From Aquisediminimonas profunda (GTDB lineage: Bacteria > Pseudomonadota > Alphaproteobacteria > Sphingomonadales > Sphingomonadaceae), in contig NZ_CP080327.1 of the NCBI RefSeq assembly GCF_019443285.1, forward strand, positions 1,116,001 through 1,180,000: 64,000 bases of DNA, written 5' to 3'. Positions 2,820 to 62,027 of the stretch are shown one piece after another. Under the pieces are notes generated by a model. The model worked only from the letters and a program-made list of their open reading frames with translations, ran no database searches and was not told the DNA's origin. Within the stretch, counting starts at the first letter, position 1; every line of letters starts with the position of its first letter. Both the position numbers and the translations under genes were made by a program.

Positions 2820-2844
2820 CCACCCTGAACCTGTGTCAGGGTGG
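2820..2844. terminator. Inverted repeat between petC and gshA
   Basis: A perfect 9-base inverted repeat (CCACCCTGA, 7-base loop, TCAGGGTGG) lies between the convergent petC and gshA genes. There is no clear T-run on either side, so the hairpin is what supports a (bidirectional) terminator. Confidence 0.6.
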
Positions 2845-2868
2845 CGGGTGTTGCCGTCAACAGAGCGA

Positions 2869-44352: not shown

Positions 44353-45412
44353 CCAGCCCCGCAAGCCGCTCTGCTTCGTCAGCCGTGATGAGCGCATCGA
44401 TCAGTTCATCCATCTGTCCCTCAAGAATCTCGGGGAGCCGATGAAGCGTCAGGTTGATGCGGTGGTCGGTGACACGACCCTGCGGAAAGTTGTAGGTCCG
44501 GATGCGCTCCGACCGGTCGCCGGAACCGACCATTGACTTGCGTGTGCCCGCGCGCTCGGAATGCAATCGCTCGCGTTCAAGCTCATACAGGCGCGTGCGA
44601 AGAACTTTCAGCGCTTTGGCCTTGTTCTTGTGCTGTGATTTTTCATCCTGCTGAATGACCACAAGCCCGGACGGGATGTGCGTGATGCGCACCGCACTGT
44701 CAGTCGTGTTGACGGATTGGCCGCCCGGTCCCGACGATCGATAGATGTCAATCCTGAGATCATTGTCATTGATCTGCACATCGACATCTTCGGCTTCCGG
44801 TAGGACCGCAACTGTCGCAGCAGACGTGTGGATACGACCGCCCGATTCGGTGACGGGCACACGCTGGACGCGGTGGACGCCGCTCTCGAACTTCAGGCGC
44901 GCGAACACACCCTGACCGGTGACCGAAGCAACGACTTCCTTGTAGCCGCCCATTTCAGCCGACGATGCGGAGATCAGTTCGACCTTCCAGCCACGCTCTT
45001 CTGCATATCGCGAATACATGCGAAACAGATCGCCGGCGAAAAGCGCCGCCTCGTCTCCACCGGTCCCGGCCCGGACCTCAAGCATGGCCGAGCGCTCGTC
45101 GGCCGCATCCTTTGGCAGGAGTGACAGCGCGAGTGCACGTTCCGCCTCGGGCAAAGTGGCCCGGATCGCTTCTGCCTCTTCCTGCGCCATTTCGCGCATT
45201 TCGGGGTCGGCGAGCATGTCTTCCAGCCCGGCGAGTTCTGTCCGAAGCCGCTGCAACTCGCCGGCCGCGGCAGCCACAGGCTCCACTTCGGCATATTCTT
45301 TGGACAGCGCAATGAACCGATCGGTCGGCAGGTCGCCGGACGACAGCTGTGCTGACAACTCCTCCCGCTTCGCCAGCAGTGCGGCGATCCGTTCTGCGGA
45401 GATGGTGGTCAT
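44339..45412 (-). CDS. prfA: Peptide chain release factor 1
   Basis: RF1 recognises UAA and UAG and triggers peptide release. The 357-aa protein has the catalytic [18 protein letters not shown] motif and the RF1-type [23 protein letters not shown] stretch. The start at 45412 overlaps the stop codon of hisS by 4 bases. Forms a hisS-prfA-prmC operon. Confidence 0.97.
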
Positions 45413-46686
45413 GCGTCGATGCCGCTCAAGAGAAATTTGGAGCCAATGGCATCCCATACCTGACGCGCAACGCGATTGCGCTCCTGATCATCCTTGCCCG
45501 AATAGCTGAAGTAATATTCTCCCATCGGGTCGCCTGCCTGGCGAATGTAGAGAATGGACAGCGCGCCTTCTTTCCGCGCAATCTCCGCCCGGCGTTTCGC
45601 GTTACCGCGGAAGGCCATTTCGGTCGCGACGCCCGCCCGACGCAGTGCCGCTGCAACGGCAAGGGCCTTGTTTTCAAGGCCAGCTTCCGTTGGAATGACG
45701 GCGACAACCGGGACTTTGATGGGCTGCGATTCGAGCAACATGCCCAATCGTTCAATGCCTGCCGCCCAGCCGACCGCAGGCGTGTGCGGACCGCCCAGGG
45801 CCTCGATCAGTCCGTCATAGCGTCCGCCGCCCAGCACGGTCCCCTGCGCGCCAAGCCGGTCCGTGACGAACTCGAACGCGGTGTGGCGGTAATAATCGAG
45901 ACCGCGCACGAGCCGCGATGCGCGCGTCCAGGCAATACCTGCAGCATCCAACCCCGCTGTCACTGTGTCGAAAAAGTCCCTCGCTTCGTCCGTCAGGAAC
46001 GTATCGATATCGGGTGCGCTGTCGGCGGCAGGCCGATCGCGCGGGTCCTTGCTGTCGAGGATGCGCAGCGGATTCTTGTGCAACCTCTCGAGGCTGTCTT
46101 CCGAAAGATCGGCGCGATGCGTTTCGAAGTGGGCGATCAGTTCGGCGCGCCAGGCCTCGCGCGATCCCGCGTCGCCCAATGTATTGAGCTGCAGCGTGAC
46201 ACCCTCGCTGATCCCGAGTTCCTTGAGCAACTGGTCTGCGAAGCAAAGCAGTTCGATGTCCGCCGCCGGCTCGGCTGCACCGATCACTTCGGCGTCAAGC
46301 TGGTGAAACTGCCGAAAGCGTCCCTTTTGGGGACGCTCGTAACGGAATAGCGGGCCGTGGGTCGCGACCTTCAGCGGAGCATATTGCTGCCACCCCTCGG
46401 TCAGATAGGCGCGCCCAATCCCGGCTGTGAACTCTGGCCGCAGCGTGAGCGAATCGCCGCCCCGGTCCTCGAACGTATACATTTCCTTGGATACGACATC
46501 GGTCGTTTCACCGAGCGACCGTGCAAAAACAGCAGTCGCTTCGAAAACGGGCACTTCGATGCGCTTGAAGCCATAGAGCCTGCGGACGCGATCGAACGTT
46601 TCCACCACATGATGGAAGCGGTCAGCAGTCTCGCCGAGCATGTCCTGTGTGCCACGTATGGGCCGGGGTGTTTCGATTTTCGCCAT
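45409..46686 (-). CDS. hisS: Histidyl-tRNA synthetase
   Basis: Class II synthetase, 425 aa. Visible are the motif 2 region ([33 protein letters not shown]), the histidine-specific signature [15 protein letters not shown] and [14 protein letters not shown]. First gene of the hisS-prfA-prmC cluster. Confidence 0.97.
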
Positions 46687-46734: not shown

Positions 46735-47373
46735 ATGACAGCTCCCGCCAAGCGCAAGATCGGCAACCGGATTGCCCCTGTCCGTTTCATTGCTTTTCTG
46801 GCTGCATTTGCCCTGTTCGGCGCGGGGATCCAGATCGAGCTGGGGCAATGGCACTATGCCGTGATGGGAGGGTTCGATCTGGCAGCACTCCTGTTCTTCA
46901 TATTGCTGGCGCCGACCCTGCGCGATGGGGAAGCAAGCGCAATCCGGCGACATGCCGCGGAGAATGATGCTAACCGGGGCACGCTTCTGGTGATTTCTGC
47001 GCTTATCGGCGCGGTGCTGCTCATCACGATCGGTGTGGAACTTACGGGCCCGGGCGAGCCCATGGCATCCTTGATCATCGTCACGCTCGGCCTGGCCTGG
47101 GTCTTCGCCAACATGCTCTATGCCCTGCACTATGCCCACCTCTTCTATGGGCAAGGCAATACGGATGGCGGCTTGAGCTTTCCGGATACCGACACACCCG
47201 ATTATCTGGACTTCGTCTATTTTGCCTTCACTCTTGGGATGACATTCCAGACCTCGGACGTTGCGATCAACAGCCGCGCGATTCGCCGGGTGGTGCTGGC
47301 CCAATGCCTGGCCGCCTTCGTCTTTAACATCGGGATCCTGGCCTTCACGATCAACACGCTGGGGAGTCGTTAG
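46735..47373 (+). CDS. DUF1345 membrane protein
   Basis: A 212-aa integral membrane protein of about five hydrophobic helices with the DUF1345 motif DTPDYLDFVYFAFTLGMTFQTSDV near residues 160-185. Function unknown; the motif resembles ion-channel pore loops in a distant way. It is divergent from hisS, and it is the last core-type gene before the tRNA-Val fragment. Confidence 0.88.
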   Translation: MTAPAKRKIGNRIAPVRFIAFLAAFALFGAGIQIELGQWHYAVMGGFDLAALLFFILLAPTLRDGEASAIRRHAAENDANRGTLLVISALIGAVLLITIGVELTGPGEPMASLIIVTLGLAWVFANMLYALHYAHLFYGQGNTDGGLSFPDTDTPDYLDFVYFAFTLGMTFQTSDVAINSRAIRRVVLAQCLAAFVFNIGILAFTINTLGSR

Positions 47374-47393
47374 GCGATTGCCGGAGGAAAAAA

Positions 47394-47442
47394 TGGTGGG
47401 CGTGGCAAGGATTGAACTTGCGACCCCTGCGATGTCAACACA
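47394..47442 (-). tRNA. 3' fragment of a tRNA-Val(GAC) gene, probable att site
   Basis: Read on the minus strand, 47442-47394 gives the right half of a tRNA-Val: the anticodon loop TTGACAT with GAC, the 3' anticodon stem CGCAG, a variable region, a T-arm with a perfect stem around TTCAATC, the 3' acceptor strand ACGCCCA and an encoded CCA. Beyond 47442 the match to the expected 5' half (D-arm and 5' acceptor strand) stops at once. The fragment cannot make a tRNA. A 3' half with CCA is what integrases of the tyrosine family leave as the duplicated attachment site. Confidence 0.85.
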
Positions 47443-48017
47443 CGTGAATGTTAAAGTATGCGGGAAATCTGCCACATTGATCGCGAATTCCTCGACCTTT
47501 TTGGGGCAAATGCCTGCAATTAAGGCGCATTTCACCGGACTTGCACCGGACCGAATCTGTTTGGTTTCAGTTGGCGCCGGTTGAGCGCGTCGACTGTGCG
47601 ACCCTTATCATAAAGTATCGCTGACTTTCCCCACTTCTACTGACCCAGCAGAAACTACCCAAGCTCATGGCATTCCCGGCGGACTTTGCGATTTTGTAAA
47701 ATCAAGAAATTTGGGCCCCAATAAAATCAATTGGTTACCGAGGCACTGTAAAACCTGTCTGGATTGTTGGAACGGCACAAAGCTTAGCCTTCCGCCAAAA
47801 CCCCTCTACAGAAGCGAGGCAAATTCGATTTGGCTGAGTGGCGTTTTGGTACCACCTTGGCTCGATTTGAACCGACCGAATACCGCGAAACTATCGTGAG
47901 CCTTTTGAGAACGTACAGGCATCAATGAGGCCCCTTAGAATGGGGGCAAGACGTTATCCCGTCACTCTACGTCGAACTAAATGAACTAGATTTCTGATGC
48001 AATCATCCCGTTTCCGC
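47443..48017. other. Gene-free spacer at the left end of the island
   Basis: 575 bases with no convincing coding region. A 62-codon open frame at 47711-47899 has no ribosome-binding site and no recognisable domain. The stretch is less GC-rich than the core genes to its left. Nothing resembling an integrase, even decayed, was recognised. Confidence 0.6.
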
Positions 48018-49172
48018 TCAACTTAGGTTGGCGAGAGATTCAACTGCGTAGAGAGCCTCAAGCAGCCGAGACAGGCGAGGATCGCAGGGGAACCAACTCA
48101 GCACTACTATGCGATTAGTGGTGTAGCCGACGCCAAGCCTTCGCGCGGGATCGGCGAAGCCGACCGTACCACCCAGTCCTGGGTGGCCGAAGGAATCCGG
48201 GTTGGCTCCATACGCGCCAATATTCAGTTGAAATCCGGCGGCGTAACGACCCAAACTACCGGTGCTCCGTCCTATGCCGCAAACGCGCTCACGCGTCGCT
48301 TGAAGGAGAGTTTCCTTTCCGATCAATCTTGGCTTCGGATCGCACACCAGCTGAGCATAAATCTGCGCCAGGCTCCGCGCGTTTGCAGTCGCGCCGGAAG
48401 CGGGTTGACCGTTTTTCCGAAAGATTCTCTGATTGGGCCAGTCCCAGTCGATCACGGGATTTGTCATCGAGTCCACGAAGGCCTGTGGATCGGGCGGCGT
48501 AAAGGTTTGCAATGCAGGGGCCGGGTCGCCACAGCTGCCGACATGGCGGTGGTCTTGTTCTGCGTCCAGCCCCATGTAAATGTCCAAACCAAGGGGGTCG
48601 GCGACCTCCTCCGCAAAGAATTGGTGGATCGTTCTCCCGTCAATCCGACGCACGAGTTCGTCCGATAAAACGCCGATTGTCAGCCCATGATAACCCCAAG
48701 TACCCGGCTCAAAATACGGCTTTTGCCTGGCAAGTTCAGCTGCGATCGGGTTATGGGCGTAGTAGTCGAAGATCGTGGCCGGACACCTTGTCGCTACAAG
48801 GCCAGCCTGATGCGACATGAGTTCGCCGACGGTAATTCGCTCCTTGCCACTGGCGGCGAATTCAGGCCAATATTTCGCGACTGGCTCTTCATAAGTAAGC
48901 CGCCCCCGATCGACCAGCATTGCGATACAGATTGCAGCCAGGCCTTTTGTTGCTGAAAAAATCGTGAACAGCGAATCTGAGGCAATTTTAGAAGATTTGT
49001 CGTTGGCGAATACACCACCCCAAAGATCCACTAAAGGTTCACCATCGCGATACACGGCAAATGCGGCGCCAACTTCCAGCCCTGAAGACAGGTTCTCTTC
49101 AAATGCTTCTCGAACGCCCTCATACCCGGGGACCACGGTTCCATGTATCTCTGATGGCTCCATTTGGTTCAC
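48018..49172 (-). CDS. Serine hydrolase, beta-lactamase class C/EstB-type
   Basis: A 384-aa enzyme of the serine beta-lactamase fold. It has the SxxK nucleophile motif SATK at 73-76, the tyrosine motif (Y160-HG in GTWGYHGLTIG) and the later HPGLGGTVGFADP region that replaces KTG. No signal peptide, so it is cytoplasmic like EstB-type esterases, some of which open lactones or cleave esters. Starts at GTG 49172 or ATG 49163. It is the first recognisable gene inside the island, and a hydrolytic step in the neighbouring degradation pathway is plausible. Confidence 0.85.
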   Translation of the reverse strand: MNQMEPSEIHGTVVPGYEGVREAFEENLSSGLEVGAAFAVYRDGEPLVDLWGGVFANDKSSKIASDSLFTIFSATKGLAAICIAMLVDRGRLTYEEPVAKYWPEFAASGKERITVGELMSHQAGLVATRCPATIFDYYAHNPIAAELARQKPYFEPGTWGYHGLTIGVLSDELVRRIDGRTIHQFFAEEVADPLGLDIYMGLDAEQDHRHVGSCGDPAPALQTFTPPDPQAFVDSMTNPVIDWDWPNQRIFRKNGQPASGATANARSLAQIYAQLVCDPKPRLIGKETLLQATRERVCGIGRSTGSLGRYAAGFQLNIGAYGANPDSFGHPGLGGTVGFADPARRLGVGYTTNRIVVLSWFPCDPRLSRLLEALYAVESLANLS

Positions 49173-49399
49173 TTTCTAGCCAACTCAGTTGTCATGGCGG
49201 ATACGACTCTATTTGCTGCAGGTCTTTCTGAGAAAGGCTCAATTCGATCCATGTGGTCCCGCTGTTTCCGGCGCGCGCATGCCCGTCTAGCTGCATCAGT
49301 TGCCCGATGCCTCTGCCCATTCGCGCAGTCTAAGGGCAAAATGTTGAGCGGGTTGCCAGTGACAGTGATAACAGGCAGCCGCTTCATGGTCTTATCCAT
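49169..49399 (-). CDS. Small ORF overlapping the serine hydrolase start
   Basis: A 76-codon frame (starting MDKTMKRLPVITVTGNP) whose TGA overlaps the GTG start of the hydrolase (GTGA). It has no recognised domain, and its C-terminal half is unusually Arg-rich, as in out-of-frame translation. It may be a coupled small gene, or the remnant of a frameshifted larger gene. Confidence 0.25.
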   Translation of the reverse strand: MDKTMKRLPVITVTGNPLNILPLDCANGQRHRATDAARRACARRKQRDHMDRIEPFSERPAANRVVSAMTTELARK

Positions 49400-49622
49400 T
49401 TATCATTCCTTGATTTTGGCATCTGCCCCTTTGACGGGCAATCGCATAAATGTTAAAATGAAGTCATGTTCTCTACTTTAGTTTGTTGCCCTTTCCGGAT
49501 AACATTCGCAATAGCATTATAATTGGCGACGTGGACGCTTGGGAACAAGCCGAGGCCGGACAACAAGTCAAAAGGTCGCTCCGGAAGAGACCGGCTGTAG
49601 GGATATCGAAGGATAAAGATCG

Positions 49623-50015
49623 ATGCTGAAGATGATATGCCATTTCAAGCGCAGGCCAGGCTTGACTCTCGAAGAGATGAAGGATCGCTACGAGAACGGA
49701 CATGTTCCGCTGATCTTAAAAATGTGCCCGCCAGTAATGGATTATCGCCGGAATTACAGAATCGAGGACGGCAAGTTCGATCCTTTCGAGGATGGAAGCA
49801 CCGCGGAGCCGGACTATGACGTGATCACCGAGGTTTGGTTCCGCAATCGGGAAGAGTTCGAGGCCATGGCGGAATTCGTCTCACGTCCAGATATCGCTCC
49901 GGTCATAATTGCCGATGAAGAGCAGTTCATGGATCGGTCGGCGTCAAGGATGTTGTTGTTCGAGGAGTTCTCCACAGATCAAAGCGCGTTTCAGCAGAGA
50001 ACCGATGAGGGCTAA
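49623..50015 (+). CDS. EthD-domain protein
   Basis: A 130-aa protein of the dimeric alpha/beta-barrel EthD family: MLKMICHFKRRPGLTLEEMKDRYENGHVPLI at the start and EVWFRNREEFEAM further on. The family is named for a gene required for ethyl tert-butyl ether degradation; members occur in many catabolic clusters, often without known chemistry. It sits alone between the hydrolase and the dehydrogenase on the opposite strand. The 224 bases after it hold no gene. Confidence 0.82.
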   Translation: MLKMICHFKRRPGLTLEEMKDRYENGHVPLILKMCPPVMDYRRNYRIEDGKFDPFEDGSTAEPDYDVITEVWFRNREEFEAMAEFVSRPDIAPVIIADEEQFMDRSASRMLLFEEFSTDQSAFQQRTDEG

Positions 50016-50239
50016 TTTGCAGCGTCGTGCAAGGTCGATATACGGTTGCTGCAGGCGCAAGCTTCAGCCCATTGGGCGTTAGATCCCAGTATTCTGGGTG
50101 GAATCCAGATTCCTTCGTTTGATCATGTGCGAAGTCGAATGATCGCTGACCTTCTCATCGGAAGCATGTGGCTCAATCGCAACTGAATATAGCTGCCGAC
50201 AAAGGCGCCCATGCATGCAATCATTTTGCGACTTTTAGA

Positions 50240-51082
50240 TTACTGATTCTTCGCAAGGAGATAGGATTGACGCTCGCCGTCAATCTCCCCTGTGAAGCCA
50301 AGAGCGGCTTCGAGCATTCTCAATCGTACATTGCGTGCTTTGGCCGTATCGAGAATTTCCGCAGACTGTTTGATTGCCATTTTGGTGCCAAACCCGCTGC
50401 GGACGTGCTGATCGAAATAGCCGAGATTGTCGATCACAAAGCAGGAACCGCTGCTGATCTTTACCGCCTTGACCAGACTTTCTTCGGGCAGGCCCCAAGC
50501 GCGGGCATAGGCCATTGTCTCGGCAACAGCGAGTCGGGTCACCATCATGATGGCGTTGTTGGCAAGCTTCGCGACTTCGCCTCCGCCCAAGACATCAAAA
50601 TAGAGCGGGCGACCTATCGATTCCAGCAGATCCTTCACTTGGCCTACGTCGTTCTCGCTCGCGCCGGTGAGGACCGAAAGTGTCCCATTCTTCCGGTCTT
50701 CATAGCTTCCGCTCACAGGAGCATCAAATAGCGTTGCACCTACAGTCGCAACCTGTTTTGCCATTTCACCCAGCCACTGCGGAGGTATTGAAGATTGAAT
50801 AATGACCGCCTGGCCCGCTCTCATGTGCGGCACCAGCCCGTCCAGAACATTCCTGACTTGCGCTTCGGGGTCGACACAAATCACAATGACATCAGCTGAG
50901 GCAGCGACTTCCTCTAATGACCCTGCGCCGCGAGCACCCTTCGCGACCATATTATCGATCGCAGCCGTGTTCAGATCGAAGACGACCAGTTTGACACCGA
51001 CTTCAGCGAGGTGTGCTGCTATGCCGCTTCCCATGTCTCCAAGGCCTATGTAGCCGACCACTCCTTTGTATTTGCTGGTCAT
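50240..51082 (-). CDS. Beta-hydroxyacid dehydrogenase (3-hydroxyisobutyrate dehydrogenase family)
   Basis: A 280-aa NAD(P)-dependent oxidoreductase: dinucleotide motif GLGDMG at 13-18, substrate loop DAPVSGSYEDRKNG from about 120, and the catalytic lysine in EVAKLANN (K172). The ATG at 51082 is preceded by GGAG; the frame is open a little further. It lies downstream of the TonB receptor on the same strand. In this cluster it could oxidise a hydroxyacid intermediate; the real substrate is not known. Confidence 0.88.
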   Translation of the reverse strand: MTSKYKGVVGYIGLGDMGSGIAAHLAEVGVKLVVFDLNTAAIDNMVAKGARGAGSLEEVAASADVIVICVDPEAQVRNVLDGLVPHMRAGQAVIIQSSIPPQWLGEMAKQVATVGATLFDAPVSGSYEDRKNGTLSVLTGASENDVGQVKDLLESIGRPLYFDVLGGGEVAKLANNAIMMVTRLAVAETMAYARAWGLPEESLVKAVKISSGSCFVIDNLGYFDQHVRSGFGTKMAIKQSAEILDTAKARNVRLRMLEAALGFTGEIDGERQSYLLAKNQ

Positions 51083-51203
51083 GGGAAACTGCTCCGGAAT
51101 ATGGTTTACCAACTGAAGGCGCGAAACGCCTCTGACGAAGAAGAGGCGGCCGCTCCGATTGGAATGGCTGCCCTGTTGCGGTTAAATCACTTAGTCATCA
51201 TCC

Positions 51204-53621
51204 TCACTGGAACAGCGAGTTCCGAAGCGTGAGCTGGAACATAACCGCGCGCGGCTCGTTTGGCTGCCCGACGAGATCGCCCAGGAAGCCCGAGGAAGTA
51301 CCAGTCCCACTGCCGGTCAGGCCAGCGGCGTTTGCCTCGCTGACGCGCAGGACGTTGGTCAGGTTCTTCCCGATCAGTGCAGCCTCCCAAGCATTGTTTG
51401 ATGCACGCAGTGCGATAGAGGCATTAAACAACCAGGATGATTTCTGATTTGCTCGGGGATCCATCTCAAGCATCGGCTGATAAGAGCTCTTGTAGGCCGC
51501 ATCGGCAGACAGGCTCAAGGTCTTGCCGCCGCTAATCTCCGACTCGTAAGTGGCGCCGATGTTTCCGAACCAGTCGGCCGCACGCAACAGGCGACGGCCA
51601 CTGAGATCCTGGCTTTGGAACGCGCTGATGCCGGTGAAAGGATTTACAACCGGGTTAAGGTTGCAGCCTTGCGCTGGAGTTTGCCCGGTGTAGCACGCCG
51701 CTGTGCGGAAGTCCCCGTAGCGGGCATGGTTCCAAGCCAAGGAACCCCGCAATGACAGCCCTGGAACAGCTTGCGGCCGGAATTCCATCGCCAGGTCGAC
51801 GCCGTAGCTCTTGCCGCCTGTCGCGTTCGTGATCTTGTAGGCGAGAGTGGCACCGTCGAAGGCCGATAACTGCAGTCCATTATATTTGTAGCTGTAAGCT
51901 GCCACATCGAACTTGAGTTGGCGGTCTAGCAGCAAACCCTTTGCGCCGACTTCGCCACCCTTCACATTCGACTGATTATATGGCGCACGGTCAGGCCCGG
52001 TGACATAGCCCCCCGACACGAAACCATGCCTGTAGGTGCCATACAGCATCAGGTCTTCGGTCGGCTTGTATCGAAGTGTCATCTCAGGTGAAAAGTTGTC
52101 GTAGCTAGACCTCGGCTTGGGATAAGTGATCGGTCCCGTAACGGCGTCAACCAGACCTGCATCCACTGCTGTGGCGGAAATTTTCTTGACTTCATGGGAG
52201 TATCTTCCGCCAATGTTGAAATCAACTTTGGACGCGACCTGGAACGTCACCTGTCCAAATACCGAATATGCTTCGGTATCAAGGTCCGTAATCTGATGAT
52301 AGTAGGTTATGGGAATTCCATTCGGAACTTGGAAGAACGCCGCGCCCATGTCGAGCAAGACCAGGCCATGGTCCCGAAACTTGTTGCGTTGATAGAAGCC
52401 GCCGGCCATGAAATTGACAGGGCCGTCATATGAAGATGTTGCCCTAACTTCTTGCGTAAACTGCCGGGTGCGGTTCTTGTCATAAGCGGGGATAAGGGTA
52501 AGTGTCGTCCAACTGACATTGTTGTTGTAGAGATCGGTGCCATAATAATAGGTCGTAACTGATGCGAGAGAGAGGGCATCCCCTACCTGTAGGTTCGCGC
52601 TGTCAATGACGGCAACTTGTCGTTGGGCGCCTTTGGTCGGCCCCTTGATCAGAGGATTCGCTGCCTGTGCCGCCGCGCTGGAGTCACTGTCAACAGTGAA
52701 GCGATCAAGCTTGCATGGCAAGGCTGGTATCGCCGTCTCGAAAAAGGGCCGACCCAAGGGACAAGCAAACATTTGAGCGCTGTTGGCCTGGCCCGAATGA
52801 TTGTCCGACTGTGCATAGGACACCTTCAGAGTGTTGTCGAAGGATCCAGACTCGTAACGTAGCGTGCCTCTGAAGAAATAATCCCTACGATCACCCAGCT
52901 TCTTGTGTGACGAATTTGGGGCGACGTTGCGGAACCAGCCGGACTGATCAGCGGCATAGCCGACAATACGTATGCCCAGTCCGTCGGCGAGAGGCGCAGA
53001 AACCATAGCCTCAACAAACTTTTGCCCGGCATAGGCCTCATATCCGGTCCTGAGGCTTGCTTCGAATTCTCGGCCCGGATTGGCTGAAACAAGCGAAATA
53101 ACGCCCCCGGGGCTGTTCTTGCCATAGAATAGGGCCTGCGGACCCTTGAGCACCTCGATACGTTCAAGGTCATGGAATCCCAGCCTCAGAAGGTTGCCTT
53201 GACTTACTTGGAGACCATCCAGATTGACCGACACTGCCTGGTCCAATGTGGCTGAACTGGTGCCCGAGCCAATTCCGCGCAAATTGACGACTGCTGAATT
53301 AGGACTCGACGAATTTCCGATTGAAAGGCCGGGGACCTGCGTGGCAAGACTGCTGAAAGTCGTGGTCGCATAACGCTCGATCTGCTCGGACGACATGGCC
53401 TGGATCGCAATCGGCACATCGGAAACACGCTCGCTCTGTTTGCGGGCGGTTACCACAATATCCCAGTCGCTGTTGGCCTGCTCTCCCTGTGGCTCACTTG
53501 GTTTCTCAGGCGCGGTCTGAGCCTGTGCAGCGACCGCAAAGGTCGATGTCGTGAGCGCAAGAAAAAGGATTAGTCCGGTTCGTCCGGCCCCGGAATTTCG
53601 ATCGAAAAGTCGTACCATCAT
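51204..53621 (-). CDS. TonB-dependent receptor (catabolic-type)
   Basis: An 805-aa outer-membrane receptor. It has a signal peptide (ending AAQAQTA near residue 36), a TonB box-like DIVVTARKQSERVSDVPIAI, a plug with IEVLKGPQALFYGKNSPGGVISL, and a barrel ending in Phe (LTLRNSLFQ). It belongs to the large sphingomonad group with IVVTARK openings, which take up varied hydrophobic compounds. Being in a degradative island, uptake of the substrate is the natural guess. Its 494-base upstream gap contains a TGACGTCA palindrome (53744-53751). Confidence 0.9.
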   Translation of the reverse strand: MMVRLFDRNSGAGRTGLILFLALTTSTFAVAAQAQTAPEKPSEPQGEQANSDWDIVVTARKQSERVSDVPIAIQAMSSEQIERYATTTFSSLATQVPGLSIGNSSSPNSAVVNLRGIGSGTSSATLDQAVSVNLDGLQVSQGNLLRLGFHDLERIEVLKGPQALFYGKNSPGGVISLVSANPGREFEASLRTGYEAYAGQKFVEAMVSAPLADGLGIRIVGYAADQSGWFRNVAPNSSHKKLGDRRDYFFRGTLRYESGSFDNTLKVSYAQSDNHSGQANSAQMFACPLGRPFFETAIPALPCKLDRFTVDSDSSAAAQAANPLIKGPTKGAQRQVAVIDSANLQVGDALSLASVTTYYYGTDLYNNNVSWTTLTLIPAYDKNRTRQFTQEVRATSSYDGPVNFMAGGFYQRNKFRDHGLVLLDMGAAFFQVPNGIPITYYHQITDLDTEAYSVFGQVTFQVASKVDFNIGGRYSHEVKKISATAVDAGLVDAVTGPITYPKPRSSYDNFSPEMTLRYKPTEDLMLYGTYRHGFVSGGYVTGPDRAPYNQSNVKGGEVGAKGLLLDRQLKFDVAAYSYKYNGLQLSAFDGATLAYKITNATGGKSYGVDLAMEFRPQAVPGLSLRGSLAWNHARYGDFRTAACYTGQTPAQGCNLNPVVNPFTGISAFQSQDLSGRRLLRAADWFGNIGATYESEISGGKTLSLSADAAYKSSYQPMLEMDPRANQKSSWLFNASIALRASNNAWEAALIGKNLTNVLRVSEANAAGLTGSGTGTSSGFLGDLVGQPNEPRAVMFQLTLRNSLFQ

Positions 53622-54115
53622 GTTGCACCTCCCACGGTTGACTTGATGCTGTCATTGCTCTGCAGGGTGGCGACCGGACATCAGATTGTCATTGGTCCAA
53701 TTCCAATACGCACCATTCCTCGATCAACCCTGTAGAGCAATTGTGACGTCATATTCGTTTTTTTGCAACCCCTCTCATAAGACTCATTTTGTTTCTGCGA
53801 TGAAGGGAATTAATCGTGACGCAATGTTGCGTCTGCTCTCAAGAATGCGGTGCTTCGCTGCGTTCCAATTGATGGCGGTTTTCCGTCCTGCCTAACCAAG
53901 AGATCTAGCGTGACACGAAACGGATTTGTTGAGTGATGTCACTATCGCAAAAGAAATTTGTGGTGCGGTGCTCTGCCATGAAGCAAGCTATGAAACGTCG
54001 AGGTAGATGCATGGATCCCTCCAACTCTTGTGAGCGCCACCGCCAATACTACGGGCGAGTCTTTGCATGGCAAATTCGGCACTGCCATTGTGGCGGAACG
54101 ACAAGACAACCAGAA
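53622..54115. other. Gene-free upstream region of the TonB receptor
   Basis: 494 bases with no supported gene. It should contain the promoter of the receptor; the only structure noticed is the 8-base palindrome TGACGTCA at 53744-53751, and a T-rich stretch after it. Confidence 0.55.
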
Positions 54116-55057
54116 TCAATTTTCTAAGACGAACCGCAATTCGCCGTTACCGTCGTCCGGCATTATGAAACCGTTGAGTTCATTGATAATGTCCCAATTG
54201 CGCGCGACGTCTTCCGGAGTAGATGGTTCCTGAATTGATCCCTGCCATCCTTTGGCACTGCCAATGAAATTGCGCGCAAAGCGACCTGCGATAGCGGAAT
54301 AGATCGACCTCGTCACATTGCACTGCTCGCTAACCAGAAAAAGCGCGAGCGGCGTCACGAATTCTGGCGACATCGCCGTCTGAAGTTTCGCCATGGCTTC
54401 GAGGACTGACCGAAACTCTTCATCAGGGACTGCATCCGACGTTGCCATGCGGGTCAAAGCGCCTGGAGAAATTGCGTTGCTCATGATGCCATACTCACGG
54501 CCCTCAATTGCAACGGCATTCATAAGCCCGATGACCGCACCTTTTGCAGCTCCATAAAATGACAATCCCGGCAAACCATAGAGACCGGCAGTCGAAGTGG
54601 TAAAGACGATGCGCCCATAATTTTCTGCCCGCATTGCCGCATAGGCTGGTTGAGTGACGTAAACGGCACCGTGCACATGTGTCGCAAGCGTCAGCTCCAG
54701 CTCCCCAACCGTTCCTTCGGTAAATCGCCTCTGCCTTAAAATTCCAGCATTGTTGATCAAGATGTCGAGCTTACCAAATTTATTGAGAGCAGTGCGCACG
54801 ATAGCTTCGCCTCCCTGCGGGGTCGCCACGCTTTCGTATGATGCCACGGCAACCCCACCGGCAGAACGTATTTCCTCAACCACGGCATCGGCACTCGCTC
54901 TTGAACTCCCGGTTCCGTCGACCTGTCCTCCAAGGTCATTTACCACAACCGATGCACCGCGCTTGGCCAATGCCAATGCATGTGCACGCCCAATGCCGTT
55001 TCCCGCTCCAGTGACAATCGCTACGCGTCCATCGAATCGAATTTCATCAACCACCAT
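54116..55057 (-). CDS. Short-chain dehydrogenase, MFE-2/HSD17B4-like
   Basis: A 313-aa SDR with TGAGNGIG at 16-23, NNAG at 102-105, and catalytic Ser155, Tyr168 and Lys172. The stretches GRAHALALAKRGASVVVNDLGG and ESVAT match the dehydrogenase domain of peroxisomal multifunctional enzyme 2 (3-hydroxyacyl-CoA dehydrogenase). It therefore may oxidise a 3-hydroxyacyl-CoA. The start at 55057 fits the family; earlier codons of the frame do not. Confidence 0.86.
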   Translation of the reverse strand: MVVDEIRFDGRVAIVTGAGNGIGRAHALALAKRGASVVVNDLGGQVDGTGSSRASADAVVEEIRSAGGVAVASYESVATPQGGEAIVRTALNKFGKLDILINNAGILRQRRFTEGTVGELELTLATHVHGAVYVTQPAYAAMRAENYGRIVFTTSTAGLYGLPGLSFYGAAKGAVIGLMNAVAIEGREYGIMSNAISPGALTRMATSDAVPDEEFRSVLEAMAKLQTAMSPEFVTPLALFLVSEQCNVTRSIYSAIAGRFARNFIGSAKGWQGSIQEPSTPEDVARNWDIINELNGFIMPDDGNGELRFVLEN

Positions 55058-55980
55058 TTCTCGTCCAGCCCTTGAAATTGTAATGAGAGGAAATCTGACG
55101 TTGCTTAACTTGATCAGACGATTGAGTAGAATGCCAGCCGGCGCCAACTGCCGGATCAAGTGCGAATCTAAACGAATCCGATTGGGCTTGGCCGACCGCA
55201 GCGAAGCTTGCTCCCGCGCCGTTCATCGTGCCTGAGCGGCTTTTCAAAGCCAACGCGCCACTGCCAATATTGCCTGAATGCATGCCCTCAGCCCTGAATC
55301 ACGCAGCAAGTTCGAACTAATGTGTCACCCGTCGAAACATCGCCATCAGATTGAATGCGGTGACCAACTTCTAGAACAGAGCCATCTTACAAAATGTACG
55401 TTCGATCGGACAGTTCATCCTCGTCCAGCCCTAGTGCAGGGTCTGGAATTACTCAATAGTGAATATGACATCGTCTTACTATAAATGTCAGTGGCGGCGT
55501 CAGATGCCGTGTTTCGATGGGTAAGGGCTCTGGTTGAGGCTCTTTCTTGTATTTTCGTATGGCTTGAAGTTTGCGTCGCAATGCACACCCATGTTTCAGA
55601 CGTTTATGCCGAGATGCAGTGAGCCTGCTTGCTGACAGTCGGCCAACACCCGAATCTGTGCAATCGCACGTCCGGTATCAGGCCCTCCTCTGCAGAGATG
55701 CCATGAATTAAAAACATTAATGGCATCAGTTTTAGGTTTTTGATTTAGATCAATGTAAGCCGCAGTCTTGCGCCTAAACGCCGACAAGGTGCAGCATTTG
55801 GTGGGCGGGAGGATAGATCGAAATAATTCTATATGAATAGAAATAAAAATATTACCTTTTATAAATAATATAGTCGGAATGGTAATTAAAGAATCGAACT
55901 ATATAAATATAATAGACAATATTGTGATATATATTCCAAAATATTGAAATACTCACCTGCCTTCAGGAGGGGAATTATTG
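55058..55980. other. Long non-coding stretch with possible decayed genes
   Basis: 923 bases between the SDR and the first monooxygenase gene. Only short frames without domains exist (for example 63 codons on the minus strand at 55596-55787). Its left half is of ordinary composition; from about 55800 it turns very AT-rich. It looks like eroded DNA plus a promoter region. No IS end was recognised. Confidence 0.55.
55806..55975 (+). promoter_or_regulatory. AT-rich regulatory region of the monooxygenase operon
   Basis: About 170 bases of mostly A and T in a GC-rich neighbourhood. It includes the dyad TTCTAT-atga-ATAGAA (55827-55842) and a perfect 10-base palindrome ACAATATTGT (55916-55925), then an AGGAGGGG ribosome-binding site (55965-55972) ahead of the ATG at 55981. 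It should hold the promoter and regulator sites of the two flavin monooxygenase genes. Confidence 0.55.
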
Positions 55981-57186
55981 ATGATTATTGACATTTTTGC
56001 GGAACTGCAGCGAGCTGAAGATTGGTCGTCGAAAGGTGAGGCTTCAGTCTTCAGGAACGCCATTGAGCAGGGAAGGTTGGCGGACGAGCTGGGCTATGGC
56101 GCTTGGTGGACCGTGGAGCATCACGGAGCGACCGAATTCAGCCTTTCGTCTGCGCCGGAATTGTTTCACGTCGCTTTGGCCATGACGACGAAGAGACTGC
56201 GGGTTGGTCATGCAGGAGTGCTTACGCCGTTCAAGGTCAATCACCCGGTTCGCATTGCAGAACGCGCAGCAATGCTCGACATTCTCAGCAATGGTCGTCT
56301 GGAGTTGGGTCTCGCGAGGTCGTCTGCCAACGAATGGGAAGTATTTGATGTCCCAAAAGAGGTGACCCAGGCCCAGTTTAACGAGCTGTCGGCGATGCTT
56401 CCAAAGATGTGGGCAGATGAGCCGTTCAGCTGGAATAGCGATCAGGTTCGCATACCTGAGATGAATGTTGTTCCTAAGCCGCTGCAGAAGTTTCCACGTC
56501 TTTGGGCCTGCGGGCAGTCACTTGAGGGGGCCCACAATGCTGGTCGCTTGGGTCTCGGCTTTCTTGGCGTTACAGTCATGGAATCGCTCGACAAGACGAT
56601 CGCGCTCAAGAGAGAATTCGAGAAGGGTGCCGAGGAGCGCTCTAGCGACATTGGTCAGCCCAATCTCGACTATGCTCTCTTTACCTTCACCCATTGCGCT
56701 CCCAGCAGGGAGGCTGCAATCGAAAGCCGCGCTGCTGAATCAGCGATGTGGTACGTGAATCGTGCGGCATCATATTTCAAGGTGCCGCGGGAAGGCCTTA
56801 TAGCCGGCGTCCGTGGATCAGCGGCGCTCGATGATGTCAGCTGGCGCCAGCAGAGCTATGCTAATAGGGCACCAGAGGCCTGCGACCCCGATGATCCTCA
56901 TCCCGTGATCCGCCTCTTGAACAGGCAGTATCTCGGGATGCCGATCGATCCTGAAGAAGCTTATGAGGGATTGGCAGGTATAGATTCAGTCATCTTCGGC
57001 GACCCTGACACTTGCTTGCGAAAGATCAAGAAGATCCAGTCGATCGGTGTCGATCGCCTACTCACCCTTCAACAGTTCGGGCATTTGAGTCACGAGCAGG
57101 TTTGCTCAAGCATCAATTTGCTCGGCAAGGAAGTTATTCCACAACTTTCCGCCTCTGCACCATTGGAATGTGTTGCGGCCGCCTGA
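55981..57186 (+). CDS. Luciferase-like flavin-dependent monooxygenase (LLM class)
   Basis: A 401-aa TIM-barrel flavin enzyme of the bacterial-luciferase superfamily. Typical segments are ADELGYGAWWTVEHHG, GHAGVLTPFKVNHPVRIAERAAMLDILSNGRLELGLARSS and the late FGDPDTCLRKIKKIQSIGVDRLL. It would use reduced FMN from a separate reductase and oxygen to insert an oxygen atom, by hydroxylation or Baeyer-Villiger reaction. Strong ribosome-binding site AGGAGG. A second monooxygenase follows 65 bases later in the same operon. No flavin reductase gene is adjacent. Confidence 0.86.
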   Translation: MIIDIFAELQRAEDWSSKGEASVFRNAIEQGRLADELGYGAWWTVEHHGATEFSLSSAPELFHVALAMTTKRLRVGHAGVLTPFKVNHPVRIAERAAMLDILSNGRLELGLARSSANEWEVFDVPKEVTQAQFNELSAMLPKMWADEPFSWNSDQVRIPEMNVVPKPLQKFPRLWACGQSLEGAHNAGRLGLGFLGVTVMESLDKTIALKREFEKGAEERSSDIGQPNLDYALFTFTHCAPSREAAIESRAAESAMWYVNRAASYFKVPREGLIAGVRGSAALDDVSWRQQSYANRAPEACDPDDPHPVIRLLNRQYLGMPIDPEEAYEGLAGIDSVIFGDPDTCLRKIKKIQSIGVDRLLTLQQFGHLSHEQVCSSINLLGKEVIPQLSASAPLECVAAA

Positions 57187-57251
57187 AGTCACAGGACTCC
57201 AATCGTAAGGCAGCCTCAACTTTTAAAATTGTAATTCACGGAGATGTAATC

Positions 57252-58703
57252 ATGACTGATACTTCCAGGAAGCCAATGCGCTTCTCGATGTTTGGTGACT
57301 TTTCGCCGGCAGCTCCACCGAACCTTTGGTATGGGGATAACGCCAGGGATTTCGATTTTCTGAACCTAAGCCACTGGATCAAGTTGGCCCAGGACCTTGA
57401 GAAGGCAAAGTTCGATACGTTCTTCTGGGCAGATCACTCCGGTCTGCACGACGCTTACAGGAACTCAGCCGCGCCCACGCTTGAAATGGCAGTGCAGTAT
57501 CCGATTGGGGATCCGTGGACACTTGCCGCGGCTCTCGCCTCTTCCACGACCCATATCGGTTTCGGGATCAGTGCCAACGTCATCCAGTATCACCCCTATG
57601 TATTTGCAAGAAAAGTCGCAACACTCGACCATATCACAGGCGGGCGGGTCGGGTGGAACATGGTCACGTCGTTCCAAAGGTCTGCCTGGCAGAACCAGGG
57701 CTTTGATGGTGCGGAATCTCATGTTGATCGATACCAGCGCCTGGAAGAATACGTTGACGTGCTTTACAAGTTGCTCGAGGGCTCCTGGGAAGACGACGCC
57801 CTTCTGCGCGATTTCGAATCGCGCAAGTTCGTCGATCCATCGAAGTGTCACCGGATTCACCACGCGGGGAAATTCTACAAGGTACCTGGAATCAATATGG
57901 TTCCGCCTTCTCCGCAGAGGATGCCCGTGCTCTTCCAAGCCGGAACTTCTGAGGAAGGACGCACATTCTCGGCCAGACATGCTGAAGGAGCGTTCATCGT
58001 CGGCTCTTCGGTGAACCAGCCCGAGTCTCTGCGCCGGGTGGTGGAAGATCTCCGAAAACGCCTGGTTGCAAATGGCCGCAAGGCAGAGGACATGCATATG
58101 CTTGCGGGCCGCTCATACATAATCGGCTCGACCGAGGAAGAAGCGCGGCGCAAAGACCGGGAAATCCAAGAGGCCTATCGCGAAACAGAGTACGGCCTCG
58201 CGTATATGAGCTCCATCATGGGGCTCGATCTCAGCGCAGTGGACATTGACACGCCAGTAGGACAGTTTTCAGGCGACGCGGTCAAGGGCGGATTCCGGGC
58301 TTTTGTCGATGCTGCGCCGAACAGGAATGCGACGTTCCGGGATATTGCGAACTTCCTCATCTCCAACCGCTTTGTGGGCACGCCGGATCAGGCCGCTGAC
58401 GAAATTGAGGAGTGGCTCAACCTTGGCGTTACAGGCATCAATTATCAGCAGATGAGTGGTGTGGGCGAAGTCTATACATTCATTGATCAGGTTTGCCCGG
58501 TCCTCAAGCGGCGTGGCCTCATGCAGTCCGAGTATGCGCCCGGCACTTTCCGCGAAAAGCTGTTCGGCGCAGGTCCTCGGCTTGGTGAAAGGCATCCCGC
58601 AGCTAAGGTTCGCAAATTGATTTGGTCCAGCCCCTCCATATTGGAGACGGACCCTGTCACAGCGGCACCTTTAGCTTCCAATCTGGCTGATGTGGCGGCC
58701 TGA
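57252..58703 (+). CDS. FMN-dependent monooxygenase of the NtaA/SnaA/DszA type
   Basis: A 483-aa enzyme of the LLM subgroup of nitrilotriacetate, pristinamycin and dibenzothiophene-sulfone monooxygenases. It shows the DTFFWADHSG, GDPWTLAAALASSTTHIGFGISANVIQYHPYVFARKVATLDHITGGRVGWNMVTS and FQAGTSEEGRTFSARHAEGAF motifs. Such enzymes work with a separate FMN reductase. The ATG at 57252 follows CGGAGA by 7 bases. Pairing with the other LLM gene could mean two oxygenations, or alternate substrates. Confidence 0.9.
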   Translation: MTDTSRKPMRFSMFGDFSPAAPPNLWYGDNARDFDFLNLSHWIKLAQDLEKAKFDTFFWADHSGLHDAYRNSAAPTLEMAVQYPIGDPWTLAAALASSTTHIGFGISANVIQYHPYVFARKVATLDHITGGRVGWNMVTSFQRSAWQNQGFDGAESHVDRYQRLEEYVDVLYKLLEGSWEDDALLRDFESRKFVDPSKCHRIHHAGKFYKVPGINMVPPSPQRMPVLFQAGTSEEGRTFSARHAEGAFIVGSSVNQPESLRRVVEDLRKRLVANGRKAEDMHMLAGRSYIIGSTEEEARRKDREIQEAYRETEYGLAYMSSIMGLDLSAVDIDTPVGQFSGDAVKGGFRAFVDAAPNRNATFRDIANFLISNRFVGTPDQAADEIEEWLNLGVTGINYQQMSGVGEVYTFIDQVCPVLKRRGLMQSEYAPGTFREKLFGAGPRLGERHPAAKVRKLIWSSPSILETDPVTAAPLASNLADVAA

Positions 58704-58953
58704 AGACAAGGCGGGCATAGCAGCCATAGGCCAGCCAACAAGTTTTGGTCTTGGAGGTAGCCTCGCCATCATCCATCCCCGCCGGACCACGAGGCCGCGT
58801 GCCTTGTATCCGGCGGTTGAGCACTAAAGCCACTCCTTAACCTCTGCAGGCATGCAAACGCCGCTTGCCCGATCGCTTTAATAAAAAAACGACATCACTA
58901 TCACTATTGCATCGTTGGCGAACAATGTTTAGGGATGGCGCAGCTATTTAGAT

Positions 58954-58974
58954 AACGACGGCCCTTTCGTCGTT
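58954..58974 (+). promoter_or_regulatory. Hairpin in the leader of the dehydrogenase gene
   Basis: AACGACG and CGTCGTT form a perfect 7-base inverted repeat with a 7-base loop, ending 23 bases before the ATG at 58998. It may be an operator or leader structure. It lies in the 294-base gap after the monooxygenase, which otherwise shows two TATCACTAT-type direct repeats but no gene. Confidence 0.4.
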
Positions 58975-58997
58975 CAGCGTCCAAAAGAGGGTGTGTC

Positions 58998-60116
58998 ATG
59001 GACAAATTTGCCTCTGCCGTGATTTATGAGAAGCCAGAAACATTTGCGCTGCGGCAATTTCCGATACCGCATATTGCCGATGGTGACATGTTGATTGAAG
59101 TTCTGGTGGCGGGAGTCGATGGTTCTGAACTTCATATGTTCAACGGTGAAATGGAGTTCATCAACAACAATGCTCCGGTGGTCTTCGGGGATGAGATAAT
59201 CGGCAAGGTTGTTGCAATCGGGGACGATGCAGCAGCGAGGCGCAGCCTGAAGCTGGGCGACGTCGTCGCTGTGGAAGCAAAGTGGCCATGCAACAAATGC
59301 CCGTCCTGTTTGCAGAACCAGTACTATCTCTGTCGCAATGGCTTGGGCAAGAACGGTTACGGCACGCGTAATTGCGCTGAGCCGCCGCATCTTTGGGGTG
59401 GATACGCAACGCACGTCTTCGTCCCACCCGAAGCGCTGGTTTACCGCGTGCCCAATGATCTTTCCCTCAATACGGCATTGGTCGCATGTTCTTTGCTAGC
59501 AAATTCTGCCAGATGGTCCGAACTGGCAAAGTCTGCCGCCGGACAGACAGTCGTTGTCATCGGCCCTGGCCCCCAGGGAATCGGTTGTGCACTTGCCGCG
59601 GTTGACGTTGGTGCCAAGGTGCTGGTCGTGGGACTGGAGCGCGACGCCACCCGTCTCGAGTTTGCCGCCAAATTCGCAACAGCGGAAACCATGGCGATTT
59701 CCGGGAAGGAGACACATCAGCAGGTCGCAGAAGCGATCAGGGCCATTGTGGGGGAAGTCGACTCCGTGATCGAAACGGCAGGATCGGCGCCAGCCAAGCA
59801 ACTTGCGCTGGAGTTGGTCAAGCCGATGGGGACGGTCGTTCACATCAGCTGGCCAAAGCCCCTTGAGCAACCCGTAAATTGGATGACACTTCTCATGAAG
59901 GAGGTGACTGTCCTCAACCCGATGTCGCATCCCTATTTCGTGGATCGTGGCTTCGAGCTTGCACAGCGATTGAAGTCGCAGGGCATCGACGTTGGCGAGA
60001 TGGTCACACACTCCTTTGGCCTGAAGGATTGCGAGCATGCCATACGCGTGGCCGCGTATCAGACCGACGAAGTCCCGATCAAAGTTGTTATCGAACCATC
60101 ACTTGACGGCCGTTGA
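58998..60116 (+). CDS. Medium-chain (zinc-type) dehydrogenase with altered catalytic site
   Basis: A 372-aa MDR-family oxidoreductase. The structural-zinc lobe is intact (C98, C101, C104, C112 in CNKCPSCLQNQYYLC) and the nucleotide motif is GPGPQGIG. The catalytic-zinc positions look changed: the usual Cys of GxCGSD is Asp41 (VDGSELH), and the usual His of GHE is Asp65 (GDEIIG). It may bind a different metal geometry or work without catalytic zinc. Start ATG 58998 follows AAGAGGGTG. Probably oxidises an alcohol or reduces a carbonyl in the island pathway. Confidence 0.85.
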   Translation: MDKFASAVIYEKPETFALRQFPIPHIADGDMLIEVLVAGVDGSELHMFNGEMEFINNNAPVVFGDEIIGKVVAIGDDAAARRSLKLGDVVAVEAKWPCNKCPSCLQNQYYLCRNGLGKNGYGTRNCAEPPHLWGGYATHVFVPPEALVYRVPNDLSLNTALVACSLLANSARWSELAKSAAGQTVVVIGPGPQGIGCALAAVDVGAKVLVVGLERDATRLEFAAKFATAETMAISGKETHQQVAEAIRAIVGEVDSVIETAGSAPAKQLALELVKPMGTVVHISWPKPLEQPVNWMTLLMKEVTVLNPMSHPYFVDRGFELAQRLKSQGIDVGEMVTHSFGLKDCEHAIRVAAYQTDEVPIKVVIEPSLDGR

Positions 60117-60169
60117 AGCAATGCAGGCTGTTCCAGAGTTCTAAGGGGTGGAAGAGCCTCTGGCCTCCC

Positions 60170-61822
60170 TCACTTCGCGAGGCCCAGTTCCTCCAAACGT
60201 TGTTGCTTGAGGACAAACCGCTGCACCTTGCCGCTCGGTGTCTTCGGTAGTTGTGATGCGAAATGGACACGGCGCGGGAATGCGTGTGCAGCGTACTTCG
60301 TTTTGACCCAATGTTTTATTTCGTCTTCGAGTTCCGGTGAGCCAACGTGCCCCGCCTCCAAAGTGACAAACGCCTCCATGATTTCGCCCCTGACATCGTC
60401 AGGCACAGCGATCACTGCGGCCTCTGATACTGACGGGTGCAGCACCAGGATCGATTCCACTTCAAAGGGTCCGATGCGATAGCCGGCCATAAGAATGACA
60501 TCGTCGTCACGCGAGCCGAAGGAAAAATAGCCATCTTCGCTGATGCTGCCGAGATCGCCCGTGAAATACCATCGGCCATCGTCGGAAACCTTTCCAAGCC
60601 ACCGCCCTGGGACACCGTCATATCCAGAAAGCCATTGTAGCGGGCTTTGCGAAAGGTCCATTGCAATGCGACCGGTCTGGCCCGGCGGGAGTTCGTGATC
60701 GCTCTCGAGGTCGAGAACGACAGCGCGCCAGCCCGGCATCCCGTGTCCCATCGACCCCGTCCGGATCGGGTAGCGCAAAAGCTCGTGCTGGTGATTATTG
60801 ATGAGCATCCCCGTTTCGGTCTGGCCGTAATGGTCGTGTACGGTGACTCCCAGCTCGCGCTCTGCCCATTGATTAACATCCGGAGTGAGCGGTTCTCCAG
60901 CGCTCGAGGCGCAACGCAACGCCAGACCTGTTGGCACGGCGATGCGGGACGAACGGAGTGAACGATATACTGTTGGCGCAGCCGCAAAATTCGTCACCTT
61001 CTGTCCGGCGAGCACAGCCATTGTTGATTCAGGCGCAAAATTGCCTGCCAAAAGGATGCTCGGAACCCCGGTGGTGAAAGTTGCCAGGATGCCAAAGTAT
61101 AGCCCATACGCCCAGCCTGGATCGGCCGCACACCAAAACACATCATCTGCGCGCAGTCCCAACCCGAACTCGGCATAGGTCTGAAAGCTGGCCAAGGCGC
61201 GGAGTGGCACAACGACGCCCTTGGGCGCGCCAGTCGTGCCGGACGTGTAAATGTGAATAAAGGGTGCATCTCCTCCCAACGCTGCGGCTGGATATCCCGG
61301 CGACTCCCCGTACATCAGCTCTGCCAGCGAAAGCTCAGTTTCCTCCGCCTTCCCGTTGCAGATAAGCTTCCAGCTTGGATCGTTCGGCATATCCGCACTC
61401 GGGGACAGCTTCGAGATATGGTCGGAATCGCTCACGACTGCTTTTGCTTGGCTGCCGATAAGCCGAACTGCGATTGCCGCAGGCGCAAATGCCGTGAACA
61501 ATGGAACATGGACGGCTCCAAGGCGCCAGATCCCCATCAGCACGATGAGAAACTCCCGGCTCTTTCCCATCAGCGTGGCAACGCGATCGCCCGGCCCGAT
61601 TCCTAGACGGGATAGAGCAGCTGCAAATTTCTCCGACTCTTCTCGCAACTCGCCATAAGTGAGGTCACTTTGTCTGAGGTCAGCCTCAATGACTCTGTAA
61701 GCGAGCCTCGCCGCGGGATGCCGATCGCACAGCAAATCAGCAGCCGAGGCATTCGCCGCCGAGAATGTTTCGATCAAAGATGCCACTCTCTTGTCTACTA
61801 TCGCCTGCGTCTTCGCACTCAT
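60170..61822 (-). CDS. Acyl-CoA synthetase, AMP-forming (ACSM-like)
   Basis: A 550-aa adenylate-forming enzyme that activates a carboxylic acid with ATP and CoA. It has the P-loop YTSGTTGAPKG, the YGQTETG motif, the GDLG hinge region and the C-terminal PKTPSGKVQR with the catalytic lysine. Overall sequence is nearest to the medium-chain/aromatic ACSM and acetyl-CoA synthetase-like group. It converges on the dehydrogenase and is separated from the thiolase by 205 bases. Confidence 0.92.
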   Translation of the reverse strand: MSAKTQAIVDKRVASLIETFSAANASAADLLCDRHPAARLAYRVIEADLRQSDLTYGELREESEKFAAALSRLGIGPGDRVATLMGKSREFLIVLMGIWRLGAVHVPLFTAFAPAAIAVRLIGSQAKAVVSDSDHISKLSPSADMPNDPSWKLICNGKAEETELSLAELMYGESPGYPAAALGGDAPFIHIYTSGTTGAPKGVVVPLRALASFQTYAEFGLGLRADDVFWCAADPGWAYGLYFGILATFTTGVPSILLAGNFAPESTMAVLAGQKVTNFAAAPTVYRSLRSSRIAVPTGLALRCASSAGEPLTPDVNQWAERELGVTVHDHYGQTETGMLINNHQHELLRYPIRTGSMGHGMPGWRAVVLDLESDHELPPGQTGRIAMDLSQSPLQWLSGYDGVPGRWLGKVSDDGRWYFTGDLGSISEDGYFSFGSRDDDVILMAGYRIGPFEVESILVLHPSVSEAAVIAVPDDVRGEIMEAFVTLEAGHVGSPELEDEIKHWVKTKYAAHAFPRRVHFASQLPKTPSGKVQRFVLKQQRLEELGLAK

Positions 61823-62027
61823 TCTTGTTCTTCCTAATTACGAGCGGGAAGTATTCCCGCGATGCCAGACTTTCAATGCGTCTTGAGATCGGGTGCTCTG
61901 CGCTTTGCAAAATGTGAGTGGTGCTTTCGCCCGCTTGTTTCACACCCACAGATTGAACGACTGTGATCTTTTCTCATATGTCGTTGGGCAATGATCACAC
62001 CATCTCATCTTCCATGTGGACAAGGAT

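Follow-up and report, generated by a model that had tools for sequence, protein, structure and literature searches.

The window analysed here is a 64,000-nt stretch of the Aquisediminimonas profunda chromosome (contig 1116001-1180000 of NZ_CP080327.1, a genome of 3,406,525 bp in one contig). Near its right-hand end, two chromosomal genes are followed by a truncated copy of a tRNA-Val(GAC) gene and by DNA that we assign to a genomic island, island A (Table 1). All 10 ORFs submitted from this part of the island match enzyme, EthD or TonB-receptor families. In the second of the two luciferase-like monooxygenase genes the PF00296 domain begins well inside the ORF, so the true start probably lies farther downstream.

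Table 1. Features at the right-hand end of the window, in window coordinates.
Feature	Position	Strand	Basis or remark
hisS, chromosomal side	45409..46686	-	name from the earlier note; homologue in the SJ20 contig 94% identical
DUF1345 gene, chromosomal neighbour on the outer side	46735..47373	+	PF07077 E 1.9e-50; adjoins intact tRNA-Val in the empty-site relative
att core, 57-bp block identical in outer fragment and intact tRNA copy	47386..47442	-	includes 8 bp past CCA; empty-site flank matches overlap 54 bp
tRNA-Val(GAC) 3' remnant, very probably outer att site of a tandem array and left end of island A	47394..47442	-	100% identity to contig 1323576-1323650; 45-nt core three times exact in genome
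Left 16.6 kb of island A	47443..64000		absent between DUF1345 and tRNA-Val in the SJ20 contig; G+C 54.5% for whole island
Serine hydrolase, Pfam Beta-lactamase superfamily, first gene of island A	48018..49172	-	PF00144 E 7.6e-60
EthD-domain protein	49623..50015	+	PF07110 E 9.6e-14
3-Hydroxyisobutyrate-dehydrogenase-like oxidoreductase	50240..51112	-	PF03446, PF14833
TonB-dependent receptor	51204..53621	-	PF00593, PF07715
Short-chain dehydrogenase	54116..55159	-	PF00106, PF13561
Luciferase-like monooxygenase	55978..57186	+	PF00296 E 7.2e-41
Luciferase-like monooxygenase	57012..58703	+	PF00296 E 3.7e-46, residues 118-474
Zinc-type alcohol dehydrogenase	58998..60116	+	PF08240, PF00107
AMP-binding enzyme, probably acyl-CoA synthetase	60170..61822	-	PF00501, PF13193
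Thiolase	62028..63212	-	PF00108, PF02803

Three copies of the tRNA-Val(GAC) 3' end

An earlier note on this DNA had read the remnant as a 49-nt minus-strand 3' half of tRNA-Val(GAC) without a 5' half, and had predicted an intact gene farther right on the same strand with an identical 3' end. All of this is borne out. Aligned to the intact gene, the remnant corresponds to nt 27-75 of the 75-nt tRNA and starts in the anticodon stem; its 5' half is absent, and within the window tRNA calling yields no gene and Rfam no match at gathering thresholds. The intact tRNA-Val(gac) gene lies on the minus strand 160 kb right of this outer fragment and is the only one in the 180 kb from 1160001 to 1340000. 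A further tRNA-Val gene, the only other one checked in the genome, lies at 2580607 and is CAC.

Across the whole 3.41-Mb genome, a 45-nt core searched at up to 3 mismatches has exactly three occurrences, all exact and all on the minus strand (1163394, 1231040 and 1323576), with the intact gene at the last of them. The reversed control pattern has none, and the match is therefore not due to chance. A middle truncated copy thus lies at contig 1231040, between the outer fragment and the intact tRNA. The identical blocks measure 57 bp for outer and intact copies, 55 bp for outer and middle, and 58 bp for middle and intact, so that the tRNA 3' end stands as a direct repeat at the island borders; outside these blocks the flanks appear unrelated by eye. 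Any further tRNA-Val fragments in the 180-kb stretch are merely 9-15 nt matches (E >= 0.56).

From site to site, the copies delimit island A (contig 1163394-1231040, 67.6 kb) and island B (1231040 to 1323576, 92.5 kb), an array of about 160 kb or 4.7% of the chromosome. The map reads chromosome, fragment, A, the integrase gene intA, fragment, B, the integrase gene intB, intact tRNA, cpdR. The shift in G+C is modest, from 59.5% on the left (window 1-47393) through 54.5% in A and 55.6% in B to 58.5% on the right.

Integrases and gene content of the two islands

IntA (contig 1229764-1231023, plus strand; Phage_integrase PF00589, E 1.6e-7) has its stop 16 bp left of the middle copy, and IntB (1322525-1323496, plus strand; PF00589, E 3.7e-23) has its stop 79 bp left of the intact tRNA, where the earlier note had expected an integrase. 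Both score above the curated cut-off, PHROGs likewise assigns both as integrases, and they are 25% identical to each other over 157 aa. Residues R246, R337, H360 and Y370 of IntA are kept in all 27 aligned IntA-type sequences, as are the matching R, R, H and Y in all 20 IntB-type sequences (IntA and IntB themselves counted). The alignment position that we take to be the first His of the HxxR motif of many tyrosine recombinases holds Lys (22/27) or Tyr (5/27) in the IntA type and His (14/20) or Tyr (6/20) in the IntB type. An N-terminal CxxCG occurs in 19 of the 27 IntA-type sequences.

Since the middle copy has its own integrase, and IntB, so distantly related, sits at the far end, we regard A and B as two separate elements. 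The earlier note had taken the fragment for the left border of a single island reaching to the intact tRNA. The acquired nature of the DNA to the right is supported, but the additional truncated copy and integrase in between make it two tandem islands; the fragment is a border, namely the outer one of a two-element array, and island A ends at the middle copy.

PF00589 has eight matches in the genome, three of them within the islands. A 160-aa ORF in island B (contig 1273412-1273894, or 157412-157894 in continued window numbering) carries a partial Phage_integrase domain scoring 28.2 bits against a cut-off of 27.1 and is likely a decayed integrase, so that island B may itself be composite. Beside IntB, a 175-aa ORF (1321028-1321555; window numbering 205028-205555) contains the stretch PHIHAVCR, which presumably recalls the HUH motif of replication and mobilisation proteins, and has no Pfam or PHROGs family match. 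Pfam gave no match for border ORFs o61, o62, o128-o132 and o145, nor PHROGs for o61, o62, o128-o130, o145 and a cut piece of o127.

VirB4 (PF03135) has no match in the whole genome; the same search found a match in 1 of 14 control genomes and in all eight relatives tested. The only match to the PF03432 relaxase lies outside the islands, at 2375668, and TrwC (PF08751) has none in the genome. By these searches neither island is an evident ICE or IME. Among the islands of the eight relatives, only one (genome G023, contig C37 135549-299158) contains a VirB4 match (143981); in the other seven relatives the VirB4 matches lie elsewhere in the genome, outside the island.

To the right of the window, 8 of 10 ORFs submitted from island A have NCBIfam matches: a biotin carboxylase, a carboxyltransferase, an enoyl-CoA hydratase, a CoA-transferase, two acyl-CoA dehydrogenases and two luciferase-like monooxygenase homologues, one of the latter submitted as a shortened sequence. 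The biotin carboxylase (NF006367) is above its cut-off; the other matches shown fall below their curated cut-offs, so these assignments apply to the family only. Pfam identifies one of the two NCBIfam-negative ORFs as an AtuA protein (PF07287, E 3.7e-137), and the gene content of island A suggests an acyclic-terpene-like acyl-CoA pathway. Homologues of this AtuA at 43-49% identity are present in 9 of 12 genus mates, with weak partial matches in G006 and SJ20 and none in G005 and G011. Island A also contains direct repeats of luciferase-like monooxygenase genes (1171980-1173134 and 1192527-1193681, 72% DNA identity) and of EthD genes (1165623-1165980 and 1217850-1218207, 93%), which suggests duplication of catabolic genes within the island.

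In the Pfam search of 10 proteins that also identified AtuA, five from island B matched: the respiratory nitrate reductase alpha subunit, a kynureninase, two IS240-type transposases (genes at contig 1246146 and 1288328) and a biopterin-dependent hydroxylase; the four without a match were o128-o131. Three of 13 genomes tested have close homologues of this alpha subunit, namely SJ20 (85%, one stop in frame), G012 (85%) and G010 (83%); the SJ20 homologue lies in a cluster with the same gene order as in B, on a contig other than the empty-site contig described below. This part of B is thus not confined to the island.

An empty site and the recurrence of fragments at tRNA-Val(GAC)

The earlier note had proposed a comparison with relatives lacking the island, and one such relative joins the outer flanks directly. 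On a single 4234-bp contig (JADLBY010000115.1) of the MAG Sphingomonadaceae bacterium SJ20, the order is hisS, DUF1345 gene, tRNA-Val, cpdR, with identities to our genome of 94% (hisS, aa), 95% (DUF1345), 100% (tRNA-Val) and 95% (cpdR); an N-formylglutamate amidohydrolase homologue (78%; product name from an annotated relative) is present too. Nucleotides 1-2757 align to our genome up to 1163442 (90.7%) and 2704-4234 from 1323571 (77.9%), and the overlap of the two flank matches, 54 bp, is the att core. The sole further match reported in our genome is the middle copy. The flanks of this one empty site, known from one relative, are of unequal identity; the cpdR DNA alone is 84.1% identical. The SJ20 MAG has a second, divergent tRNA-Val/cpdR locus (tRNA 97%, CpdR 69%), so the bin may be mixed. 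We surveyed 61 loci with flank proteins and tRNA, 31 of 80 fetched by DUF1345 similarity and 30 tRNA-centred ones (one our own). None of the other 60 has DUF1345 together with tRNA-Val, two of them (L022 and L036) stopping at the DUF1345 gene. The empty site is compatible with a site never occupied and with one from which the islands were excised.

We then consider how widely such fragments occur. In a survey of 98 genomes including this one, with a tRNA match in at least 91 and counts that are lower bounds, at least 9 have a full-length match with a 3' piece running from nt 23-30 to nt 75 farther downstream, both on one contig and strand. With at least 8 of the 97 other genomes (G020, G023, G024, G029, G039, G044, G073 and G084) carrying an intact tRNA and a downstream fragment, the sequences indicate that tRNA-Val(GAC) is an integration hot spot. 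In three genomes (G032, G034 and G080) such a piece sits on a different contig from the full-length match, among the matches listed; pieces in G051 (nt 42-75) and G003 (nt 14-75) and a second one in G032 (nt 27-68) were left out of the count. Among the 30 tRNA-centred loci (L093-L122, with our own L105 counted), 25 have CpdR next to tRNA-Val; none was found in L093, L096, L111, L118 and L121.

Proteins similar to IntA and IntB occur in 39 and 41 of 298 family genomes, respectively (E <= 1e-10, this genome counted), and both are absent, among the matches listed, from six genus mates (G002, G006, G008, G009, G010 and G012). ARAGORN places the 30 IntA loci fetched at tRNA-Val(GAC) (10), other Val (3), Thr (3), Pro (2) and Arg, Gly and Ala (1 each), and calls no tRNA at 9, including our own middle fragment (L123). 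For IntB, 20 of the 30 loci fetched gave Pro (6), Val(TAC) (4), Val(GAC) (1, our own) and Ala, Thr and His (1 each), with no tRNA at 6. Fourteen of the tRNA-less loci were compared with 37 pooled tRNA sequences of the fetched loci to detect fragments: L123 has the Val fragment, and L168-L172, distant IntB homologues, have the 3' half of a tRNA-Pro or tRNA-Arg and carry the integrase 5' of this half, which is the other element end; L125, L126, L129, L131-L134 and L154 have none. Trees of 27 IntA and 20 IntB sequences, inspected by eye and lacking support values, show targets that differ between neighbouring branches. Neither lineage is bound to a single tRNA, and since both are found at other tRNAs as well, site specificity here is deduced from position.

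In a megablast search of the 16.6-kb window part of island A against a plasmid collection, four records matched, each over the first 53 bp only. These are complete tRNA-Val genes by alignment, one confirmed by ARAGORN, and we discarded them as evidence of island A on plasmids. The 60-kb plasmid pTomMM7Ab of Sphingobium sp. TomMM7A (AP027313.1; locus L214, 6001-6075) carries a complete tRNA-Val(GAC), which may act as a decoy site or may be a gene that has moved, as well as a tRNA-Gly; its sister plasmids AP027320.1 and AP027335.1 have the same full-length tRNA-Val match. A 201-kb record labelled as plasmid unnamed6 of Sphingomonas parapaucimobilis (NZ_CP155755.1; locus L215, 6001-7455) holds tRNA-Val, cpdR and an N-formylglutamate amidohydrolase gene.

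Origin of the array and its known parallels

We hold with high confidence that two genomic islands are stacked in a single tRNA-Val(GAC) gene and that the fragment is the attachment scar at their outer end; this confidence covers the stacking and not the order of arrival. Each island would carry an attP made of the tRNA 3' half (about nt 27-75 and a few bases past CCA) beside its own tyrosine integrase. Recombination of attP with the tRNA 3' half would insert the island, rebuild the tRNA at the integrase end and leave a 3' fragment at the opposite end. Insertion of another element at this place, by a different integrase that shares the site specificity, would then give the tandem array. We infer this recombination from the repeats, the intact gene, both integrases with their catalytic residues and the empty site, each of which is observed. 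Site-specific integration into a tRNA 3' half by two different integrases would amount to tandem accretion, a mechanism known from the literature, and the three direct repeats may even now allow A, B or both to be excised.

A single 160-kb island, with the middle fragment as an internal duplication of its att site, would equally have an empty site that joins the outer flanks directly, and on the 5' side the outer fragment does match the intact copy over two more bases than the middle fragment does. Yet the middle copy and its neighbouring integrase repeat the geometry of the right end, IntA and IntB share little sequence, and two elements need no extra steps; we dropped the single-island reading once the middle copy and IntA appeared, and consider it very improbable. 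Fragments of tRNA genes can also arise by duplication, and the remnant could in principle be the by-product of an ordinary rearrangement or partial tRNA duplication. We give this a negligible chance, given that both integrases stand where integration predicts them, that a relative has the empty site, that the G+C shifts and that similar fragment boundaries recur in at least eight other genomes.

The order in which the stacked islands arrived is a separate matter. We think that A came first and that B used the tRNA rebuilt by A, although the sequence does not fix the order. Since a complete tRNA is the usual attB, it would be simpler for an incoming element to enter there. It is conceivable, if somewhat less probable, that B came first and A entered B's outer fragment, or that A and B arrived as a ready-made composite, a scenario that overlaps with our preferred one: every order yields the same final map, and the review PMC5704250 does not exclude transfer of a whole composite.

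With two stacked islands, the borders of about 160 kb of acquired DNA are now fixed on the chromosome, and inherited metabolism can be separated from acquired metabolism, that is, acyl-CoA-type catabolism in A and nitrate respiration and aromatic amino-acid catabolism in B. One tRNA gene can be used to seek such islands across the family. The general idea of island function is unchanged: this is an ordinary case of bacteria gaining extra metabolic genes, for which the evidence is unusually complete. A bolder proposal, which we consider unlikely, is that tRNA-Val(GAC) beside cpdR serves throughout the Sphingomonadaceae as a dock for large catabolic islands that have an integrase and no recognisable transfer machinery, with two unlike integrase lineages acting on the same 3' half and the stackable units moving by a carrier not encoded in the genome. 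Our search of the open-licence literature found no paper on a Sphingomonad tRNA-Val genomic island with an integrase, which says little about the wider print.

In tandem ICEs, IMEs and CIMEs, as the review PMC5704250 describes them, neighbouring elements share an att site and have distantly related integrases presumably of the same specificity. Islands A and B resemble such arrays in the shared internal att site and the separate integrase of each element, and differ in that neither is an evident ICE or IME by the VirB4, PF03432 and TrwC searches; an ICE would be expected to bring its own VirB4. Other Sphingomonadaceae integrases are up to 51% (IntA) and 69% (IntB) identical to ours, and many adjoin an intact tRNA with the integrase stop toward the tRNA 3' end, but they also sit at Pro, Thr, Arg, Gly, Ala, His and other Val tRNAs. 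With tRNA-anchored islands that carry a tyrosine integrase, the array has in common the tRNA 3' half as att core, a tRNA rebuilt at one end and a fragment at the other, an integrase beside the rebuilt tRNA, a lower G+C and accessory metabolism. There is no difference in principle; here the target is the tRNA-Val(GAC) beside cpdR, and it has received two elements.
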